Shown: positions 22,503-63,725 of the stretch, in pieces | How positions within the stretch are numbered: the stretch's first letter is position 1 | Layout: each line of letters starts with the position of its first letter | Assembly (NCBI GenBank): GCA_020740775.1 | Contig: JAHEWK010000001.1 | Span: forward strand, 7,006,001 to 7,070,000 | Reading direction: 5' to 3' | DNA: 64,000 bases | Source of the DNA: Ilyonectria destructans | Taxonomy: Eukaryota > Ascomycota > Sordariomycetes > Hypocreales > Nectriaceae | The notes under the pieces: generated by a model | What the model was told of the DNA's origin: nothing | Database searches by the model: none | What the model saw: only the letters and a program-made list of their open reading frames with translations | Position numbers and translations under genes: made by a program

Positions 22503-25380
22503 ATGGAAGTCGTCAGTTGTGGCATCCACGGCTTTGGTGAGGCCATCGGTCTTGACGTAGACGAGCTACGCGTGTTCTGGAAGCTTGACTTCGCCGATGA
22601 GCATGCTGTCCAGGTGGCATACCGCCTGGTGGTGTCGGACAGCAAAGACGCCGACGGCTATGGTCAGGAAGGAATCTGTTTCGATACTGGCCGCGCCAAA
22701 GGCCGTGAGCAGCGCAACATCTTGTGCAAGCCGCAGGGTGGCTTCAAGTCGACAACATTCTACTACTGGACCGTGACGGTCTGGGATCAGAATGGAAACG
22801 AGGCGACCAGCTCAGTCAACGAGTTCTACACGTCGTATCCTCGATGCTCCAAGCTCCTGCCACCGTATAGCATGAACCAGAAATATGTAAGACTCAAATC
22901 CACAGGGCCTCGACTGTCAGTTTACTGACCGGATGGTCCATAGATGCCGCACTCCAGTCTTATTTTTCGCACTTGGTTCGAGGACGAGGCAAACCGCTGG
23001 AAGGCCGTATGGATTGGTGATGGAGGCGACAAGCCTATCTACCTCCGCAAAAGCCTTACCTTCCAGCGCAAACCGTCGCGCGTCATTATATTCGCCTCAG
23101 GCTTGGGCCATTTCAATCTCTCTGTCAACGGTCAGCCGGCCTCGTCCCACGTCCTGGACCCAGGCTGGACCAACTACCACCGGACAGTACAGTTTGTGGG
23201 ATACGACGTGACGGATAATATTTTGGACGGGGAGAACGTTTTTGGTGCCCACGTGGGCAACGGCTTCTACGCAGGCGACCAAGGGGACCGCTTCTTCTGG
23301 CCCATGTACGAGGACAACACGTACGTCCGCTACGGTAACGAGCTGTGCTTCTTTGCCGAGATCCATGCTCATTACGACGATGGCACGCACGAGTGTATCG
23401 TCTCCGACCCGAGCTGGACGATCCGTAAGAGCGCCACCACACTGGCGAATATCTACGCCTCTGAAAACCACGACCGGCGGGCATATCCCGTTGGCTGGGA
23501 CGCACCGGGCTTTGACGATGCTACTTGGCAGCCGGCCAAGCCGCTCACGGGACCAAGGGGCAAGTTGCGATACCAGAGCCAGCATCCAGTCATGTTACAC
23601 AACACGTTCGTGCCCATTAAGCAAAGCACAGTCAAGCCTGGCGTCCTCATGTACGACCTTGGCCAGAATGCATCCATCATGGTACGAGTCGAAGCCAGTG
23701 GTCCCGCTGCAGCCGAGTACCGCGTCAAGTACTCCGAGACGGTCGGTGAAGATGGCCTTGTGCTAATGCCGGATCCTCTGTTCAAGGAGTTCGAAACGGG
23801 TGTGTACTCGAAGATTACGCTGGCAGGGCAGGGAGAGCAGGAGGTTTGGACGCCCGACTTTAGCTTTACGAGTGCTCGATACATCCAGATCGAAGGCGCC
23901 TCGCTTGATGGGGAAGATGGCCTTCCTGTCATCCACTCACTCACTGCCCGCCACGTCTCGTCTGGCGCTCCGCAACTCGGTTTTGTGAAGACTGACAAAG
24001 AGGATGTCAACGCATTAATTAACGCCTGCTACTGGACCTTCAGCTCGAATATATTCAGCTATCACACTGACTGCCCACAAATCGAAAAGTTTGGATGGCT
24101 GGAGGTGTCGGCTCTACTCTTTCCCGCCACACAATATGTCCGTGACATGGAGGCTGTCTACTCCAAGATCCTAGACGATATCATCGACACACAGGAGCCC
24201 TCCGGGCTTGTTCCTACTATGGCACCCTTGGTCAGATACATGTGAGTGATGAGCCTGCCCTTCCTGTTGTGACTGCTCTAGGAGACTGACACGAGTTAGG
24301 TGTGGCCCTATGCATGACACAATCACCTGGGGCGGTGCCGTGTGCTTACTCCCCGAACTTATTAAGCACTACTACGGCAGCACAGCTGTCTTCAAAAAGA
24401 TATATAAGCCATGCGTACAGTACATGGAATACATGCAGGACAAAGAGCGACTTGGTGGACTCATTGAGCACGGCCTTGGAGACTGGGGCTACAGCATTGC
24501 CTACGGAAATCACCAGGCAAACATCGAAACGGCCATCTATTATCAGTGCCTGCGCAACGTAGCTCTCATGGCCAATCACCTCGGGTACACAGGTGACGAG
24601 GCTAGATTTACTTCGTGGGCAGAGCGGATATACACCGTCTACAACCAGCAGCTCCTCGTCACGGACAAGACAACGTATCCCTACGCGTTCTACACGTCTC
24701 GCGACGCCCCCGGAACGCAAGACCGCACAATGGTAGCCCAAGCCGTCGCCCTCAAGCACGGGCTCATCCCCGTCGAACACCGCGACGACATCATCCAAGC
24801 CTTCATCGCCGCCGCGGAAGACTCAGGCCACGTGATGCGCGCGGGCGAGATCGGCCTCAAGTACCTGTGGAACACGCTGGCCGACCCAGATGTAGACCGG
24901 CCAGATATTGTCTTCAACATGATGCGCCAGGAGGAGCACCCATCATACATGCGCTTCCTGCGGCGCGGTGAGACGAGCCTGCTGGAGTTCTGGCAGGACG
25001 AGTGCCGCTCCAAGTGCCACGATATGCTGGGTACCATCTACGAGTGGTTCTACGACTATGCGATGGGCGTGAAACCGTTGACAGATGCGTACCGTACGTG
25101 GAGGCTGCGGCCGTGCTTCAAGGCCGAGTTGGACTACGTGGAGGGCAAGGTTGAGTCGCCGTATGGGCTGATCGCGGTTTGCTTCGATCGCAGAGGGAGA
25201 CAGGATGGAAAGGCGGTGGTGGATGTCAGTGTGCCGACTGGGACTACCTGCGAGCTGGTTCTTCCGAGCGAGACGAGTGTGGTGGAGATACAGAGGCAGC
25301 CGGTTGACGAGGCTCGGAACTTCAAGGGCAAGACGTTGGAGCTGCTCCAGGGCCAATATAGACTAGAGATTACAGCTTAG
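22503..25380 (+). CDS. Alpha-L-rhamnosidase, GH78, 920 aa
   Basis: Three exons, join(22503..22886, 22944..24241, 24300..25380), give 920 residues. It releases terminal L-rhamnose from plant glycosides. The N-terminal beta-domain (VQVAYRLVVSDS) is followed by a carbohydrate-binding-like part (PIYLRKSLTF, GLGHFNLSVNGQPA, LDPGWTNYHRTVQF) and the (alpha/alpha)6 catalytic barrel, which begins near NALINACYWTFSSNI. The catalytic motif is TDCPQIEKFGWLE (D504, E509), then MHDTITWGGAVCLLPE. A C-terminal beta-domain follows. No signal peptide is seen, so it is probably intracellular and acts on imported glycosides, consistent with the divergent sugar porter. Confidence 0.9.
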
Positions 25381-32249: not shown

Positions 32250-35200
32250 ATGTTCCCTTTCCCAGTACAAGACGACCAAAGCGTGAGGCCTTTATCCGAG
32301 GACGATCAGCTAGTTCTCTTGGGTCTTGTCCGCCGCTATGGCGTCTCGAGTCTTGTCTGCGCCCTGAGTGGTTTGGGCACTCCTTGTGAGTTCGAACTAG
32401 ACAGACTGCCAACGTATTCCAACTCACACGACGCAGCCCGAGCCTCTACATTCTCGGCGACGACTCTTCTTAGCAACACAAGTGCTCCCTCCTTGACATG
32501 GAGCAGTTCTGAGGCTTCCCACGCCCGATCTGACGCCGCCTCGATCCGCACTCTGTCCACCTGGCAAGACACGTCTACCGACGTTCCTTCGATCGACGAC
32601 GGCGAGGTCGGCAAAGTAGCCGATAGGACGTGGCTCGACTCTCCCAGTCTGATTCAGTCGCCCATTCCGCCCTGCGATGTCACCTCTCACCTCTCGCCTC
32701 GTCACATTGCACCGACTTCTAAGAAATACCAGTGCCATATGTGCTTTTTGGATAACAACCCCGTGGGCTTTGGCCGGAAGAGTGACTTTAAGAAGCATCT
32801 CTACAACTTCCACGATGCTAACGTGACTTGGCTGTGCAAGAGTAAGGGCTGCCATCTGTCTTTTGCTACTGAGCGAGCGTATAGCATCCACGCCAAAGAG
32901 ACACACTATATAGACGCTCTGCCTAACAGTTCAGCCAAGACGGAGTTATGCCCCCAGGTTGTCTTTGCGTGCGGTTTTGCTAACTGCAAGGACCGCATCT
33001 TTGAAGCTTCAAGTAGCGATCAAGCGTCGGCTAGCCGCGACAAGTACTTCGAGCATATCGCCAAGCATTTCGAGGATGGATATAATATGAACAACTGGGA
33101 GTATAACGTGCAGTTGCACAACCTTATTTGCCAGTCCAAGGTCAAATCCATCTGGAAGACGTGCATCTGGCCCAAGGAGAGGAGACAGCAGCTCACCTGG
33201 CGTGCTCGATCCTCCGGCGATTTGAAACGTATGCTTGAGTCGCGCCACCTCGGCCAGGATATTTCGACTCTCGTTCGTCTCGCGTTTATCCTCGGTACCT
33301 CGCCTTTCACCAACCCTAACACGCCACCCCCGAGCGAAATTGATCTTCAGTTCCCTCTGCCCGTCCGATCCGAATGCTTGATGGACACCGTTGGACATGC
33401 CGAAGGAACGCAACCCAAAGCCAAGCCTTCCAACAATTCCGCGAACGCCAGCACCCCAGGAATCACTCCTCCAAACCAACCACCGCAAACGCCTCAGCTT
33501 ACCACGCTCCCGACCCGACGGATCAAGCAGGAAACACGTCCCTCTACTTCCGTGGATAGCATCCCTGAGTCCAAAATCCAGGACGAGCTCACCGCTGGAT
33601 CCCGCCCTGGGACTCCCTTCCCGAACCCTAACAAAAAGGTATGGCCTGTGGATTCACCCAAGTTTCAGGCACCAACTGCGGCGACAGCTTCACCCATGAG
33701 ACTACCATTTGTCACGGATGGACAAATTGTGGAATACTCACCAACTGAGGAGGAAGTACGTCATTGTTTTGGGCTTGAGTCCGCCGTTCAGCCCAAATCA
33801 CTCTACGTCCCTGCTTTGGCCACAGTAAACAAAGCCTCAGTCGATGGGGAGAATATTGAGAATCGCCCTATCGTTCAGCTGCTTCCGGAGAGAAGAGATC
33901 AGGAAGATAATAGATGTACCGAGGGTGAAGTTAATGTTGCTCTCGATGTATCACTTGATGACGCAAAGGGTGAAACAAAACTCGAGCAGGAGGTGCATGC
34001 CGCGAGCCGATGCCAGTGAGTCTGATTAATCTCGACCATTGTTCGTTACGGTAATGCTTAATTATGCGTCTAGATATAAATCAAACGAAGGGCCTCAGTC
34101 AGACTTAGTGTCTATGCCTGAGAAGAGTGTTTTGAGCGGAAGCACTCGCTCTATGTCCGAAGATCCTCAGACATTAGTCGACGAAGCATGCGCCATAATT
34201 CTATCAACCGCCTTTGGTATCACGATTGATGAGGTACCAGAGCCAACTTCAGTCTGGCAGAGCGTTCAAACATGTCTGGCAGAGCTCTCTGAAATGGTAG
34301 ATCCAAGTTTAGAACTGCCATGTGCATATCGAGAGTATGCTGGACAATCCGGTAAAGCTCCATGCCCATCAGCTCAAGATGGAGCCGCAAGCTCAGCATC
34401 GCGATCATCACAAAAGCGCAAGCCTTTGGGAACTGGAAGCGACGGTGACAATCCAGAAGATAGCTCAGATTCAAACGGCGGCTTAACATCCCAGGACTGC
34501 GATACCAACAGATCAAAAAGGAGGAAGACGACTACCCGTTTCAGCTGTCCATTCAGAAAAAGAAACCCCCTTCGGTTTCATGTTCGAGATCACATGAACT
34601 GCGCGACGCAGTCATTTTCCTCGATAACTCTGGTTAAGTGGGTCCCCAGTTACACCGACCCGAGCCTGAATCGCTAAGCTGAGGTAGGCGACATGTCATG
34701 ACATTTCACAAATGCAAGAGAGCTGCCCCATTTGTCTGCACGCGTTGCCAGGAGAGGTTTACGACGATTCAAGACTGCCAGGCGCACTTACGGGTCCCGC
34801 CAGACAGAATATGTCAGACAAAAGATCCCGGTGACGATAGCAGCTCTGAAGATGATCCAGAGGATGGCATCACATCGGAAATCGAGGAAGTGCTGCGGGA
34901 CCGGAGAGCATACATTCAAGTTGTGGGGTGGGATGCTCTTTGGCGAACACTCTTTCCTACAGACAGTACTATAGAATCTGCAGGTAACGTATTTCAAGTC
35001 CACCATATAGCAATGTTGTCTAACTCATTTCTTAGAATTCGAACCTGTGATTGAAGATTACGAAGTGCAACATGACTTCGAGGAATGCAGTGGGGAGTGG
35101 CAATCTTTTCTAAGAGCAGAAGCCATCAGAATGCTGTCTAACCCAACCCAAGCGTCTCCGGACAAGCTCCATCCACTTTTCCAGACTCTAGTCAACAGAA

Positions 35201-35634
35201 CTCTACAGGGCTGCCGGTCCAGGGTTCTAGGTTCGTACGCAAGGGTCTCTAGAAGAAGGCAACGTACCGCAGACGAACAAAATCAGGCTGCTTCATCATC
35301 AAGGTCCTCTAGTACTTTGACAACGCATCAGAGACGTCTATTACCTACACCAGACTCGATAGATCAGAGATCTCCACCTCCACCTTCTTCCACGACATCC
35401 AGACCGGCCCCAATGGGGATAGATGAGAGTTGGCACCAGAACATGGCGCAACCCCAAGCTACGAACACATCCGACCTCGAACCCTCACAGTTCGGGGGCG
35501 GCGTGTTGCTTGCCGCAGCCGTCCACCAATATGACACCTCCAACGTTACCAATCAGTGGCCAGACGTATGTGTTATCTGCCAAGGACCCAGACCATGCGA
35601 TTGTGATAGGGGCTTCGATTCTTTGGGTGCCTGA
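32250..35634 (+). CDS. Large C2H2-type zinc-finger protein, 1074 aa
   Basis: Four exons, join(32250..34015, 34074..34637, 34688..34983, 35036..35634). The first in-frame ATG is 32250. Two zinc-finger regions are visible. The first, in exon 1, is KYQCHMCFLDN, SDFKKHLYNFH, then a second finger CKSKGCHLSF...HAKETH. The second lies across introns 2-3: RFSCPFRKRNPLRF, then CATQSFSSITLVKRHVMTFHKC and FVCTRCQERFTTIQDCQAHL. The latter pattern is a recurrent fungal C2H2 arrangement. Long Ser/Pro/Thr-rich linkers separate them. Probably a nuclear protein, possibly a regulator; the family has no assigned role. It lies between a dead oxidoreductase and RIP-like DNA. Confidence 0.75.
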
Positions 35635-37167
35635 ACAAAGTCCGCAAGCGGTATATAGTCGTCGGGTTACCGACCCCACTCGCAGAGCTGCACAGCCTTC
35701 GGAACTTCAGCTATAGTGTTATGCAGACTGAGCCACTTATTTTTTTTCTCTACTAGAGTAATAATAGTAATAGGGTTTCATAGAGAGATAACTTCAGTCT
35801 ATCTATATAGAACTTTTATAGACTTACTGACTACTTTATAATATATATAGAGGAGCTATATTAAGAGGTTAGGGTGCTTTAGTATATATATACCCAGAGG
35901 GAGGACTAAAAGCTTAACAGTAAAAAAATGATATACCAAAGTATTCTAACCTCTTAATACAGCTTAATAAAGTCTTACTCTAATACCTAAAAATTATATA
36001 AAGTAATACTTAAAGCTAGTAAATCTAACAAGTAAAATTTTTAAAGTAGTTCTCTTAGCTTAAAGTATAAAAAGACTCTAAAAAAACTCTTAATTTAATA
36101 AGGTAGACTATTAAGACTATTAAACTAGAGTAAATTCAGTAACCTAATAGGCTTTATAATTTAGATTTAAAGTTATCTAAGTAATATAAGATACTTAAAG
36201 CTATAAAATATTTAGATAAGATAATTACCTACCTTTATAAAGCTATTAAGACTATACTAAAAGTTAGCTTTATAGTGTATAAATATAGTAATTATCTTAA
36301 TACTCTACTCTACCTTAGATTCTTATACTTTATAAAATATATAGTCGATGTTATACTGAAGGAGTATCCAGGCAGATTAACAGTATTAAATAACCTTACT
36401 ATTTATCTCAGTATTAGATACCGCTAGATAGAGTCTAATATAAAGCATAAGGATATTATAGATACTGTTAAGTATGCTAATAGTACTATTAATAAAGAAT
36501 CTAAGGGGTATCCCTACTAACTATACTGGCTTTCTATCCTCAGGCTTTAGCACTCTGTAATAACTCAGCTATATACCGATGCTGTATACTTAAGCTATAA
36601 AGCTCTTAGAGAACTAACACCTGGGCTCAAAGGAAGTTCCAGGAATATTACGGTGTATCTTTCCACTTACTCTTACGGCGAACTAATATACTGTTAACGA
36701 TATACCCGCTGATAAACCAGAATATATTAATATAATAATTCAGCTTGACGATCGACTTACTGAGTGATATAAACTCAGTAAAGGCTCTTAAGATGTTAAG
36801 AAAGCCGCTAGATATTATACTTTACTAATAGAGCTTCAATCTGCACTAATTAGAGTTCCTCTACTTGCTGTAGGGCGATACATACTAGCTGCCAATATCC
36901 TTAATAATCTAGAGAAGGCCTATTATATTGCTGACGCTACTATTTCGCTTATACCCCAGTCGGTTTTAAATTCCCTTTTCAGTTTAGTGTGGATAAGCAG
37001 CAGGTTCTTGAGTAAGTGGTTAGTTTAGTATCTAATGCTGCTGTAACTATATTGATGGCAGACCAGGAATAGTATACGCGATAAAGATGCTTAAGATGGG
37101 TTGGGGTATCCTGGCGAGTTCTCTTTAAGATATCTGAAGCAGCTTGCCCTCTTTTAATCTTAACTGA
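35635..37167. repeat. AT-rich, TpA-rich DNA resembling a RIP-degraded repeat
   Basis: From about 35735 to 36600 the sequence is extremely AT-rich with abundant TA dinucleotides and no open frame. From 36600 to 37167 it is less biased but still non-coding. This is the signature of repeat-induced point mutation. I could not identify the original element or its ends. Confidence 0.6.
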
Positions 37168-37524
37168 GAGTATCCCGAGTTAGCAACGTCATATCGTTAT
37201 AACTCCTTAGTCATTAACCCACAGGGGATCCGAGTGGTTGAGCTTCCTGAGCTTTCTCGAACGTAGATTGTCAAGCGAGAAAAGAAACTCCAATCCGCAG
37301 AAACCCTAGAGCGGCTTTGAGATATAATTGCGAGCCCGGTTCTTGATGCTCTGGGCTTTTTGGAGATCCCAACGGGAGACACTTGGGCGCTTATTTGGTG
37401 GATTCTAAATGGACCACTTGTCAGGTTCCCCATACATACTGCAGGGTACCATTTGGGCTCTGGTTCCAAGATAGTTCTTGGTAGAGTCATTTCATCTTCT
37501 AGTAGTCACGTCAAAAAGAGATAA
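37168..37524 (+). pseudogene. CHAT-domain protein remnant
   Basis: One frame reads LATSYRYNSLVINPQGIRVVELP, then ETLERL, stop, DIIASPVLDALGFLEIP, WALIWWILNGPLVRFPIHTAGYHL and VILGRVISSSSS-like residues before TAA at 37522. Key words such as IWWI-x-GPL-x-FP-x-H-x-AGYH match the CHAT (caspase-like) domain of fungal TPR-CHAT proteins. In-frame TAG and TGA codons replace expected Gln/Trp/Arg, consistent with C-to-T mutation. Its upstream part merges into the AT-rich DNA. Confidence 0.5.
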
Positions 37525-39190
37525 GTAATATTATGTAATAATGACAGATTTCTTTTTGCTCCTTAGGTATTCCCTCCTCCGCTCCCCCCGACAGAACTAA
37601 CTATCGAGATCATAAAGAGAAATCCGGTCCCCATTTTCCTTCCCATCTATGGCAGGAAGTTAGATCTTGCTGAGTCGGGCATCCCTATTGATGTCAGCAG
37701 AGCTAACCTCTTCGACATTATATACTTTCATGCCACTTTTAAAAACTGTAGGATAATTTAGGACTACTACCGTTGGTATGTCAAAGTGATTCTCTGGTTC
37801 TCGTCCAGAATCACAGCAGGAATGGATCAGTGGATTGGTAGAATCAGTCACAAGCGTTATCAACCATCTAAAAGCGAGTGACATCCGCTTCCTAGCTAGG
37901 GAATTTGTTATTCTGCAACAGATCATTTAATGTCTACCCATTCGTCGGCCAGCCGCACCGACCGAAGCCACCCGGATCTCATCTTTGGCTATACTCTCTA
38001 CGATCAGCTCTCGTGCAAACACCTGTTCCGGCACCAATAGCAAACAGATGGAGTTGGCGCCGTGGTCAAGTAAGATAACTTGCGATGTTGTTTCTTTAGT
38101 AAACGCCCATGGGTGCAGGTTTGAATAATTAAAGGAGGAAACAATAAAACATTGCCTGTTCATTCATTGTACGGGTCCCAAGCAAAGTCTCCTCCCTTTC
38201 TTATTTTCCGCTGAAGGTCAAGATGATCCAGGGCACACCTAGTGGCAAGTCAAGCCGACATCCACGACATCTGGAAGCGTGATGAGCATACGGTGGGATT
38301 CGTTGGTTTTGTCAGGCCATCACTCGGAGCAACTCAGCCTTCTCGCCCGCCCCCCAACAGGATATCAAGACCTGCCTAGTCAGAGACAAACACTAGGTAG
38401 GAAGCGTATAGTTTCAACTTGACAGCTAAGATATCCCGCTTCTAGAAACGCTGTCAGGTAACTATGGGTCCACTAGGGGTGCACAGGCACGAATCAGACA
38501 GGTTAAGCGAGCAAATACACTCCAGGTGAGCTTATCACAGCGCTCTGAAGCGCGCAGCGTGGGAAAGACCCTCTAAGACGAAAGCAGTTGAGTGTCGATT
38601 AAGCTATATCTTGATACGTCAGCCTTGCCCGGCAGTGCGGCAATATGGAGAGGGGATATTCAGATTCAATGAGTGAAGTATGACTGCGTCGTATATGCCT
38701 GGTGCTGAGAGTTTGCCGCTTATTGAGCACCACAAAGCCAACTGGAGATACCCCCGCAGGAGAGCAATTGGCGAAGGACCTCGCACAGCGTTTCGCTGCG
38801 AGGCGCTATACAGGAAGCGAAGCGACCAAGCAGACGTTCTGCTCCCTCGCCTCGACCCTGCCTCCCGTTCACTTCCATGGACACGTTCGAGCCGACTACC
38901 ACCCGCAGCAGAACGACATGCTCTTCGCTCGCGGCGAGGAGCTCAAGGCAATGGAGGTTTTCGAGCTCGACCTTCAACAATCCCGACCAGCCGTGGTTCT
39001 CATCGGCTTCATATCAGGGCGCAGGTGGAGACTGCGGCGCCCTACTTCTAGACGTGCTTCGTGCTTTATGGTGGTCGAAAATTCCTCTTGAGCGATACGG
39101 AATAAATGAACTATAGAATTCATCTAAACACGCAGAGATTTGCATTGGATGATGTTGAGTAAACCAAAAACCAAAAACCTGATACATTCA
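37525..39190. other. Intergenic; ambiguous open frames at 38680-39116
   Basis: Between 37525 and 38680 only short frames are found. At 38680-39116 four overlapping frames (three plus, one minus) stay open for 80-130 codons, and none has recognised features or clear splice structure, so no gene is called. Confidence 0.4.
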
Positions 39191-56238: not shown

Positions 56239-57119
56239 ATGGCCTCTCTTTATGCTGATCATCCTTTTCCTTTAATCCCGACTCCAGCCCACAAAGAAGC
56301 AGAGGTCAGTCTTACCTGCCCGTGTTCTATCGTCTTCTAACCGTATTCAGCCCGACATGTTTTCCCGAGTCGCTTCCGAAATGTCCCTCGTCCATAATAT
56401 GGTTATCCGCGGCCTCAACTCCATCTACCTGCAAGCCCCACGAGTCTCCCAGAACGACGTGCCCTCTTTCTTGCAATACGCGCTCGCTTGGTGGGCACTG
56501 GTCAACGTGCATCACACAGGCGAGGAGACAGACTTTTTCCCATACTTGGAAGATGCCACAGGGCAGAAGGGGCTGATGGACATCAACGTGGACCAACACC
56601 ATGCGTTCCGAGACGGGCTGCAAAGCTTCAAGACATATATGGAGGACTGTGTTGCTGGAAAGCAAACATTCGAAGGCAACAAGGTCGTTGGCATAATTGA
56701 TGAGTTTGGAAAAGTGTTGGTGACGCACCTGACAGACGAGATCCCCACCTTGTTGCAGCTGCGCGAGGTTGGGATGGAGAAATTGGGAGGTCTGGAGAAG
56801 CGGTTTGACCTGGAAGGAGAAAAAAACATGGTACGTCTGAACATCAAATTGGAGGAATTGAGCGCCCGAATTGATGAAGCTAACGATGCAAATACAGAAA
56901 CTGCTGGGACTGGTGCAGGGCTTGCCCTTCTGCTTCTGCAACCATGATGTCCAGTATGAAGATGGTAAGTGGGCGAGTTGGCCGCCAGCCCCGCGCATCG
57001 TGCACATCCTTGCTCGCCATGTCACGTACTGGGTGCATCGAGACCGGTGGAAGTTTGCGGCCTGTGATCGATACGGACAGTTACGAACGCTCCATTGCCT
57101 CTCTCAGGAGAAGGCGTGA
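56239..57119 (+). CDS. Hemerythrin-like (HHE) domain protein, 255 aa
   Basis: Three exons, join(56239..56304, 56351..56830, 56898..57119), encode 255 residues. The first exon supplies MASLYADHPFPLIPTPAHKE and the third continues as KLLGLVQGLPFCFCNHDVQYEDG, ending DRWKFAACDRYG. The four-helix di-iron motif is visible: H37 (SLVHNMVI), H76/H77-x2-EE (VNVHHTGEETDFFPYLE), H105/H106 (DQHHAF) and H148-x3-E152 (THLTDE). Such proteins bind oxygen or nitric oxide, or sense iron; fungal members are uncharacterised. No signal peptide, so probably cytosolic. It lies 4 kb from the anaerobic ribonucleotide reductase fusion. Confidence 0.85.
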
Positions 57120-61226: not shown

Positions 61227-63725
61227 ATGACTTCCGAGATGACTTCCAATGTGCGCCTGGTCGACGAGTATCTATCACAGACGACATGGAAGGGCTCTGA
61301 GAATGCCAATTCAACCTACTCGCACCAAGGACTTATGCAGTACGTCTCCCAACATGTTATTTCGGAGTATTGGCTGCAGCAGCTCTACTCCGAAGAGATC
61401 CGGACGTTCAACGAACAGAACCGCTTCCACATCCATGACCTCGGATTTCTGAGTGCCTACTGTTCAGGTTGGAGCATTGAAGACATCCTCCTTCAAGGCT
61501 TCGGTGGCGTCGAGAACAAGATTCAGTGCAGACCTCCCAAGCACCTTAACACTGCCCTCAACCAAACGGTCAACTTCCTCTTTACCCTTCAAGGGGAACT
61601 CGCTGGAGCTCAGGCACTCTCGAGCTTCGACACATATCTCGCTCCTTTCGTTCGAGCCGATAAACTCACGTACACCGATGTCTTCAAGTATGTCCAGAGC
61701 TTCGTCTACTCACTCAATGTGCCTACGCGGAGCGGATTTCAGGCGCCCTTCACCAACCTCTCGATGGATTTGATTTGCCCCAAAAGCCTCCAATTCCAAC
61801 CTATTCTCATTGGTGGCGAACCGCACCCGACTTGGATGTACGGCGACTTCCAGGAAGAGATGGATATGCTCAACAAGGCTTTCGCCGAGGTTATGATACA
61901 GGGCGACGGCAATGGCAATATCTTTTCTTTCCCAATCCCGACTTACAACCTTTGTGAAGGCATTGACTGGGACTCGCCTCGCTGGGAGTCCATCTGGGAG
62001 ATGACAGCTAAGTACGGCGTCCCCTACTTCGCCAACTTCATCAACAGCGACTTGGACCCCGAAGACTTTCGATCAATGTGCTGTCGGCTCCGCCTCGACC
62101 TCAGCAAATTGCACTGCAGAGTCGGTGGCCAGTATGGTGCGAGCCCGTTAACTGGCTCTATTGGAGTTGTCACGCTCAATCTGCCGAACCTTGCTTTCCG
62201 ATCCAACGGGACGAAAGAGTCATTTTTTGCAGAAATATCCGAAACACTGCGGGTTGCCAAGGACTCACTTGAGATCAAGCGAAAGGTGGTGAATGGAAAT
62301 TCTGCCTTGTATCCCTATGCAGCACACTATCTATCTGCCACGAAACACCGCACAGGATCACATTGGACCAATCACTTCAGTACTATTGGCGTCAACGGTA
62401 TGAACGAAGCGCTAGTCGCCATCTTTGGCGAGGGTATCACTGAGCACAAGGAGTTCGCCCTTCAGACACTGGACTTTATCAAGGAGCGGCTTCAAGAGTT
62501 CCAAAACGAAACTGGCAACCTCTATAATCTGGAGGCCAGTCCGGCAGAAAGCACCTGCTACAAGTTTGCCCGACGGGACAAGGAGCTTTTTCCGAGTCGC
62601 ACCATCCCAACCTTCTACACCAACTCGACCATGCTCCCTGTAGACACGACCGAGGACCTCTTTGAAGCCCTTAGTCATCAGGAGGAGCTACAGTGCTCAT
62701 ACACGGGCGGCACCGTTTTTCACGCCTTCTTGGGTGAGCGTTTGTCGAGCTGGAGGATGGCGAGAAACCTCGTCAGAATGTTGACAGAGCGTTACCGTGT
62801 CCCGTATTTAACCCTCACGCCGACCTTTAGCATCTGCAAAACACATGGCTACATTGCAGGAGAGCAGCCACACTGCACTGTGTGCGCTGAAGAATGCCTT
62901 GTGTACTCACGAATCGTTGGCTATTTCCGTCCCACTCGCGACTGGAACAAGGGCAAGACGGCCGAGTTTTCTATGCGAAAGACCTATCGTTATGAAATTG
63001 GTTCCATCGACGAGAAAGAGAAGGAGAAGAATAGGCTGCGGGAGCTGGAGAGCCAAGTCGCCGAGATCGTTGATTTGCCTGTGGCTGGGTACACAAAGTT
63101 GACTCTCAGTGACTGGCCCGGCAAGATGCAAGCCGCTATCATGTTCACATCTCGCTGCAACCTTTCATGCCCTTGGTGTCATAACGGGCCGCTCGTTCGT
63201 GGTGAGCGTGACAACTTCACGATCCTGGACATATTTCGCCACATCACGTCAACGCCACATAAGTCACTCGTCATATCAGGCGGTGAGCCGACCATCCACA
63301 AGGGCTTGGTCCCCTTCATGCGACTTCTCAATCAGGCGGGCGTGAGTATCAAGCTTGACAGCAACGGCACGTCGCCCGTGGTCTTGAGCCGCATATTCGC
63401 TGAGAAGCTTGTCGACTTTGTGGCTATGGATATCAAATGCGCCCTGGAGAACTACAAGAAGGTGACTGGCCGAAAGATAGCTCCAAAGGTTCTGGAGTCT
63501 AGCATTGCACTCATAAAAGAGAGCGGAGTGCCATATGAATTCCGCACTACAGTCGTGCCGTCGTTGGTGGATATGGAGGATCTCTTCGAAGCGAAACGGC
63601 TGGCTGGTGGGAAGTTGACGATGCAACGTTTCCGCAAGGGGGACAACAACTTGCACGAACAGTTTCGCGAGTGTCAGGAGCACACTGAGCAAGAATTCAA
63701 GACGATGGTTACGCAAGTAGCATAG
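61227..63725 (+). CDS. nrdD-nrdG: Anaerobic ribonucleoside-triphosphate reductase fused to its radical-SAM activase (NrdD-NrdG), 832 aa
   Basis: A single intronless frame. Residues about 1-600 are class III RNR (NrdD): HIHDLGFLSAYCSGWSIEDILLQGF, TLQGELAGAQALSSFDTYLAPF, SMCCRLRLDL (C285/C286, thiyl-radical region), YGASPLTGSIGVVTLNLP, and a zinc site C537-x2-H540-x9-C550-x2-C553 before SRIVGYFRP (candidate glycyl radical G565) and WNKGKTAEFSMRKTY. A charged linker leads to residues about 627-832, an NrdG/PFL-activase-like radical-SAM domain: KLTLSDWPGKMQ, CNLSCPWCHNG (C644-x3-C648-x2-C651, 4Fe-4S) and VISGGEPT (G685-E687, SAM contact). It would make deoxynucleotides without oxygen, activating its own glycyl radical. 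The N-terminal ATP-cone is missing. ATG 61227 is the first; another lies four codons on. Confidence 0.95.
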   Translation: MTSEMTSNVRLVDEYLSQTTWKGSENANSTYSHQGLMQYVSQHVISEYWLQQLYSEEIRTFNEQNRFHIHDLGFLSAYCSGWSIEDILLQGFGGVENKIQCRPPKHLNTALNQTVNFLFTLQGELAGAQALSSFDTYLAPFVRADKLTYTDVFKYVQSFVYSLNVPTRSGFQAPFTNLSMDLICPKSLQFQPILIGGEPHPTWMYGDFQEEMDMLNKAFAEVMIQGDGNGNIFSFPIPTYNLCEGIDWDSPRWESIWEMTAKYGVPYFANFINSDLDPEDFRSMCCRLRLDLSKLHCRVGGQYGASPLTGSIGVVTLNLPNLAFRSNGTKESFFAEISETLRVAKDSLEIKRKVVNGNSALYPYAAHYLSATKHRTGSHWTNHFSTIGVNGMNEALVAIFGEGITEHKEFALQTLDFIKERLQEFQNETGNLYNLEASPAESTCYKFARRDKELFPSRTIPTFYTNSTMLPVDTTEDLFEALSHQEELQCSYTGGTVFHAFLGERLSSWRMARNLVRMLTERYRVPYLTLTPTFSICKTHGYIAGEQPHCTVCAEECLVYSRIVGYFRPTRDWNKGKTAEFSMRKTYRYEIGSIDEKEKEKNRLRELESQVAEIVDLPVAGYTKLTLSDWPGKMQAAIMFTSRCNLSCPWCHNGPLVRGERDNFTILDIFRHITSTPHKSLVISGGEPTIHKGLVPFMRLLNQAGVSIKLDSNGTSPVVLSRIFAEKLVDFVAMDIKCALENYKKVTGRKIAPKVLESSIALIKESGVPYEFRTTVVPSLVDMEDLFEAKRLAGGKLTMQRFRKGDNNLHEQFRECQEHTEQEFKTMVTQVA

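Follow-up and report, generated by a model that had tools for sequence, protein, structure and literature searches.

A single uninterrupted reading frame in the genome of Ilyonectria destructans encodes a full class III ribonucleotide reductase (RNR), NrdD, followed in the same chain by a radical-SAM activase of the NrdG2 type. The window, that is, the whole stretch of 64,000 nucleotides analyzed here, covers bases 7,006,001 to 7,070,000 of a contig of 7,387,871 bases. We consider it very probable that the product is a glycyl-radical reductase fused to its activase and that the gene goes back to bacterial nrdD and nrdG, which an ancestor of this fungus took up. The frame starts with ATG and runs through 832 codons with zero internal stops; when the window was shuffled 40 times by single nucleotides, the longest open frame was 261 codons. 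Its parts, in window positions, are as follows.

61227-63725, plus strand: fused NrdD-NrdG frame, 832 amino acids and a stop codon, intron not needed
61299-62987, plus strand: NrdD catalytic domain, residues 25-587, from the complete Pfam NRDD profile, TIGR02487 and PRK08270
61302-61310, plus strand: NxN flap motif N26-A27-N28, from residue position and comparison with relatives
61461-61463, plus strand: C79, conserved active-site cysteine, C in 64 of 64 relatives
62076-62087, plus strand: MCCR-type finger loop, M284-C285-C286-R287, where the thiyl-radical cysteine is expected, from alignment and the motif classes of PMC9669993
62532-62534, plus strand: E436, putative active-site glutamate, paired in the alignment with T. 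maritima NrdD chain position 495
62835-62885, plus strand: metal site of the glycyl-radical domain (C537, H540, C550, C553), from conservation in relatives
62919-62921, plus strand: G565, glycyl-radical residue in RIVGYF (R562-I-V-G565-Y)
62988-63080, plus strand: charged linker, residues 588-618 (31 residues), the gap separating the NrdD and NrdG family matches
63081-63599, plus strand: NrdG2-type activase domain, residues 619-791, TIGR02495 above its cut-off
63156-63179, plus strand: CxxxCxxC radical-SAM iron-sulfur site (C644/C648/C651), from motif and conservation
63279-63290, plus strand: GGEP motif, residues 685-688, from motif and conservation

Both halves of the protein are identified by profile searches well above curated cut-offs. 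Pfam NRDD (PF13597) aligns from profile position 1 to 562 of 562 (E = 3.6e-179, 597.5 bits against a cut-off of 26.2), and the NCBIfam models PRK08270 (849 bits, cut-off 548) and TIGR02487 for NrdD (478 bits, cut-off 326) are also passed. In the C-terminal part, the NCBIfam NrdG2 model TIGR02495 covers profile positions 2 to 178 of 193 with 148.5 bits (cut-off 131.15), and Pfam Radical_SAM matches residues 639 to 782 with 56.5 bits (cut-off 29.5). The remaining Pfam and NCBIfam models fell below their cut-offs for the fused protein (for NCBIfam, among the best 25 of 50 listed). The two enzyme families and their union in a single chain, both proposed in a first-pass annotation from the letters of the DNA, are thus borne out by the profiles and by the location of both domains inside one 832-residue frame.

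The catalytic residues of both families are kept. Of 164 NrdD columns conserved to 95% or more among 64 prokaryotic or viral relatives, the fused protein retains 151, and of 29 NrdG columns conserved to 90% or more among 59 relatives it retains 25; these counts omit L052, L053, L054, L061 and L067, which have fewer than 480 matched query positions, and NrdG rows below 150. Thirteen conserved NrdD positions differ in the fungus, of which 154, 303 and 398 are invariant across all 64 relatives, and four conserved NrdG positions differ as well. The thiyl-radical cysteines named by the first-pass annotation could be located in the MCCR loop and at C79, with C285 and C286, like C79, being cysteine in all 64 relatives. 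Another candidate for the radical cysteine, C297, came from a phmmer pairing with P. copri Cys416 counted by hand; it is rejected because this position is K in 51/64 relatives, C285 and C286 are cysteine throughout, and the T. maritima alignment backs the latter pair. E436 lies among the conserved columns of the relatives and pairs, counted by hand, with a T. maritima residue which we take to be the proposed proton-source glutamate. The predicted four-ligand metal site ahead of G565 is kept; it had been described as a zinc site, of which the four ligands stand while the composition is adjusted to Cys-His-Cys-Cys as in most relatives (position 540 is H in 54/64 and C in 9/64). G565 itself was correctly assigned, with G in 54 relatives and a gap in the remaining 10, and the CxxxCxxC cluster and GGE motif were likewise found where a radical-SAM activase should have them. 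A role for the NxN flap has been described for P. copri NrdD (PMC11226230).

The assembly comprises 71.7 Mb in 74 contigs, and the fused gene occupies contig bases 7,067,227 to 7,069,725, 318 kb from the contig end and flanked by sequence on both sides, in agreement with the earlier placement of the gene in a fungal genome. The arrangement found, NrdD then NrdG in one frame within a eukaryotic genome, is that of a eukaryotic NrdDG fusion. A single match to the fused gene was obtained in the genome. TEF1 of the same genome, read by eye, is broken by several introns. The class I RNR large subunit also gives one match in the genome, its best-scoring solved relatives being 1zyz-like chains and then 3hnc, presumably the yeast and human class I large subunits, respectively. 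A search of the terminal 10 kb at each end of the contig found no doubled telomere repeat.

Left of the fused gene are frames for a tannase, a zinc alcohol dehydrogenase and a hemerythrin-domain protein, the last at window positions 56276 to 56947, about 4 kb upstream, for which a link to oxygen or iron is possible; three frames to the right had no Pfam match. Elsewhere in the window, the frames at 22944-24245 and 24310-25380 are probably one alpha-L-rhamnosidase gene with an intron (the first frame was scanned). GC content drops to 0.37 at window positions 35001 to 38000 and to 0.34 over the contig's final 10 kb (L072), possibly as a result of repeat-induced point mutation.

Not one NrdD-NrdG fusion was found across 103 loci from prokaryotes, viruses and phages (66 prokaryotic genome contigs, 3 viral or phage loci, 30 from the phyla of L014 and L012, and 4 phage loci; certain genes occur more than once in this set). 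Both nrdD and nrdG were found in 85/99 loci, never in one frame, and the four additional phage loci are unfused; for phages, the best 20 of 2243 records were listed and five examined. Bacterial fusions had been suspected from at least 21 matches with frames of at least 945, and none of the 15 inspected (L101-L115) is fused, L115 being a locus in which NrdG was not found. A 956-residue frame (L100) proved to have six stops inside and to represent separate genes, and three phage matches (H3, H4 and H7) that seemed to run NrdD into NrdG consist of separate frames; no activase frame was seen in phage match H2. Since no fusion occurs among the loci examined, the fusion would be either eukaryotic or inherited from an unsampled donor. 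The best full-length prokaryotic NrdD matches are 46% to 56% identical. Bacterial PRK08270-type NrdD with NrdG2 resembles the fungal protein in its NCBIfam models and reaches 57% identity over the NrdD part, but is encoded by neighboring separate, often overlapping frames, whereas the fungal pair shares one. We also noticed that six loci (L055, L056, L059, L063, L066 and L115) have NrdD frames with in-frame insertions of hundreds of residues, intein-like in appearance, near query positions 173, 235, 286 and 444-465.

A different division of the reductase was observed in many prokaryotic loci, where the NrdD frame ends just past the metal site, with the glycyl-radical segment in a small frame of its own ahead of nrdG. 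Judged by motif, a separate small frame is present in 28 of 99 loci and the segment is in frame in 56, while 11 are undecided and 4 are cut; the 28 include L110, whose sequence is masked in places, and certain loci occur twice (L105 is apparently L008). Measured between stops, the separate small frames span 45 to 129 residues, and they are offset by -40 to +52 bases; they include, among others:

L007, 4744-4878: small glycyl-radical frame
L019, 4772-4936: small glycyl-radical frame
L036, 4715-5101: small glycyl-radical frame
L101, 3242-3418: small glycyl-radical frame

Eight of the 11 undecided loci (L027, L051, L094, L096, L100, L107, L109 and L111) have a small frame by profile match, weak in five of the eight (13.9 to 18.7 bits), which brings loci with a separate frame by motif or profile to 36/99. 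The glycyl-radical domain seems, on these matches, to be encoded apart from NrdD in about a third of the relatives. The split loci include Nealson-, Dojka-, Falkow- and Kuenenbacteria, a Pacearchaeota and an Aminicenantes genome, with many Patescibacteria. The separate frames resemble YfiD/GrcA, the stand-alone radical cofactor of pyruvate formate-lyase. No earlier report of a split NrdD glycyl-radical domain appears among the matches listed from open-licence titles and abstract openings, and this arrangement is possibly more novel than the fungal fusion.

The phylogeny of NrdD against prokaryotic sequences, proposed in the first-pass annotation, was computed as two trees of 65 and 60 rows, each a chosen subset of loci; it gives the fungal protein a position between mostly bacterial groups and names no donor. 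Taken as unrooted, both trees agree that the fungal NrdD joins the branch that separates a few divergent sequences (L048, L049 and phage L078, to which the 60-row tree adds L091-L097 and L100) from a large clade of all other rows, and they differ in the midpoint root only. Supports at the attachment are 88/88 in the 65-row tree, and 100/99 and 93/89 in the 60-row tree. The fungal NrdD is a long branch (1.3-1.4 in both trees) lying between two groups of mostly bacterial rows, and neither tree points to a donor.

The fungal NrdD begins at the NxN flap and is devoid of an ATP-cone, in contrast to the bacterial PRK08270-type proteins, where PF03477 (ATP-cone) is present in 4/4 relatives scanned. 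All 62 judgeable NrdD frames among the 66 genome-contig loci, and 88 of 95 across the 99 loci, are extended at the N-terminus by 80 residues or more, the remaining four of the 99 being cut or short of the start. A profile of 63 N-terminal pieces detected no ATP-cone elsewhere in the 64-kb window, the only non-NrdD match having E = 1.9; the profile included L042, which is cut by a contig end and contributes catalytic sequence, giving a weak match to the window's NrdD. Short N-termini with no room for an ATP-cone were also observed in prokaryotic loci L091-L095, L109 and L116 and in phage L120 (a 590-residue frame), five of these eight loci coming from genomes in the phylum of L014 (Parachlamydiales). 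The existence of such prokaryotic relatives counts against a simple loss of the ATP-cone. In the second tree, L091-L095 lie past the 100/99 branch from the fungal row and L116 in the large clade opposite, while L109 is absent. The T. maritima and T4 NrdD proteins also have no ATP-cone (PMC11226230).

The fungal fusion is real but belongs to an already known kind of find. Contrary to the first-pass annotation, which knew of no described fungal example, fused NrdDG was published in 2010 by Lundin et al. (PMC3019208) for Fusarium oxysporum, Gibberella zeae, Nectria haematococca, Schizosaccharomyces japonicus and Phytophthora. That study describes eukaryotic NrdD and NrdG as always in one frame, except for a second, unfused nrdD in S. 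japonicus, places these NrdD among bacterial NrdD, and infers a bacterial source followed by spread among eukaryotes with a patchy distribution; the order NrdD then NrdG in a single fungal frame is the one seen here. In another eukaryote, the diplomonad Trepomonas, NrdDG is likewise fused and of bacterial origin (PMC4967989), and NRDD is reported from anaerobic gut fungi (PMC6712302, PMC10978972). The solved T. maritima NrdD (PDB: 4coi, 4u3e) shares the double-cysteine finger loop, the aligned glutamate and the lack of an ATP-cone, and matches fungal residues 68 to 587 with E = 1.8e-34; its chains are NrdD alone, and its subclade lacks the finger-loop methionine (PMC9669993), which the fungal loop has. 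Among the matches listed from the open-licence literature, mostly titles and abstract openings, none reports biochemical work on a fungal NrdDG.

Three other explanations of the gene were weighed. That it is bacterial, brought in by contamination or a misjoined contig end, deserves hardly any credence. All relatives found are prokaryotic or viral, in collections of prokaryotes, viruses and phages, and codon usage speaks on both sides: two other frames from the fungal assembly correlate with the fused gene at just 0.41 and 0.10, below the 0.54 of a high-GC bacterial homologue, but fungal RNR1 does so at r = 0.72 (GC3 of 0.74 against 0.64 in the fused gene), and five of the seven other frames, which are not proven genes, do so at 0.80, 0.72, 0.65, 0.63 and 0.58, while the other three of four bacterial nrdD genes give -0.48, -0.25 and 0.36. 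Contamination is unlikely because the gene sits 318 kb inside a 7.39-Mb contig of a 71.7-Mb eukaryotic genome, with sequence continuing on both sides, and the absence of the fusion from all 103 loci examined, as well as the fungal fusions already published (PMC3019208), also argue against it.

A decayed or repurposed gene, its frame open and ribonucleotide reduction lost, is improbable, though less so. It would accord with the long fungal branch, with the changes at the three invariant NrdD positions and with the presence of a class I RNR in the genome; however, decay would hardly be expected to leave 832 open codons with the recognized catalytic and metal-binding residues of both domains intact. 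Slightly easier to credit, yet still unlikely, is that the fused protein is cleaved or that its parts act separately, the benefit of fusion being one promoter and one start codon; the proposal of Lundin et al. that fusion overcomes the operon problem of eukaryotes and so aids fixation (PMC3019208) would favor this.

We prefer the reading of a bacterially derived reductase fused to its activase, and the two enzyme families suggest how it may work. If the gene is expressed and its product active, then without oxygen the C-terminal radical-SAM domain would use its iron-sulfur cluster and S-adenosylmethionine to abstract hydrogen from G565, in the same chain or in a dimer partner, with the 31-residue linker tethering the activase to the reductase. 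The glycyl radical would in turn generate a thiyl radical at C285-C286 of the finger loop, and this thiyl radical would start the reduction of ribonucleoside triphosphates, so that the fused enzyme may activate itself in cis and support dNTP synthesis under anoxia. Electrons probably come from formate and/or thioredoxin, as predicted from the formate-linked methionine of the MCCR loop and from E436, which resembles a thioredoxin-linked residue; section 2.5 of PMC9669993 describes methionine-bearing double-cysteine loops of this type as having components for formate or thioredoxin use. An exon-by-exon search, which detected 3 of 14 controls, found no glycyl-radical domain of the pyruvate formate-lyase type (PF01228) in the genome; no dedicated formate source was thus seen, and formate would be needed from elsewhere.

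Class I RNR needs oxygen, and since the eukaryotic class I enzyme is also kept, the fused enzyme is, on the gene content, most likely a supplement for low oxygen. The best hopene cyclase match, in a weak test where no control passed, reached 195 bits against a cut-off of 431; the matching sequence carries general cyclase domains, and we take it to be of the lanosterol-synthase family. For copper nitrite reductase, with one control passed, matches were weak and did not exceed 31.4 bits (cut-off 296). With neither family above its cut-off, a wider anaerobic lifestyle is not supported, and given the retained class I RNR and the lack of a hopene cyclase above cut-off, the fused gene does not imply full anaerobic growth.

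Fungi dividing in waterlogged soil, in plant tissue or in guts critically require a way to make dNTPs that does not depend on oxygen. Having no ATP-cone, the fungal enzyme should lack the usual dATP off-switch, which raises the question of how fungi control their dNTP pools under anoxia. The union of both activities in one gene allows the effect of a tethered activase on glycyl-radical formation to be tested.
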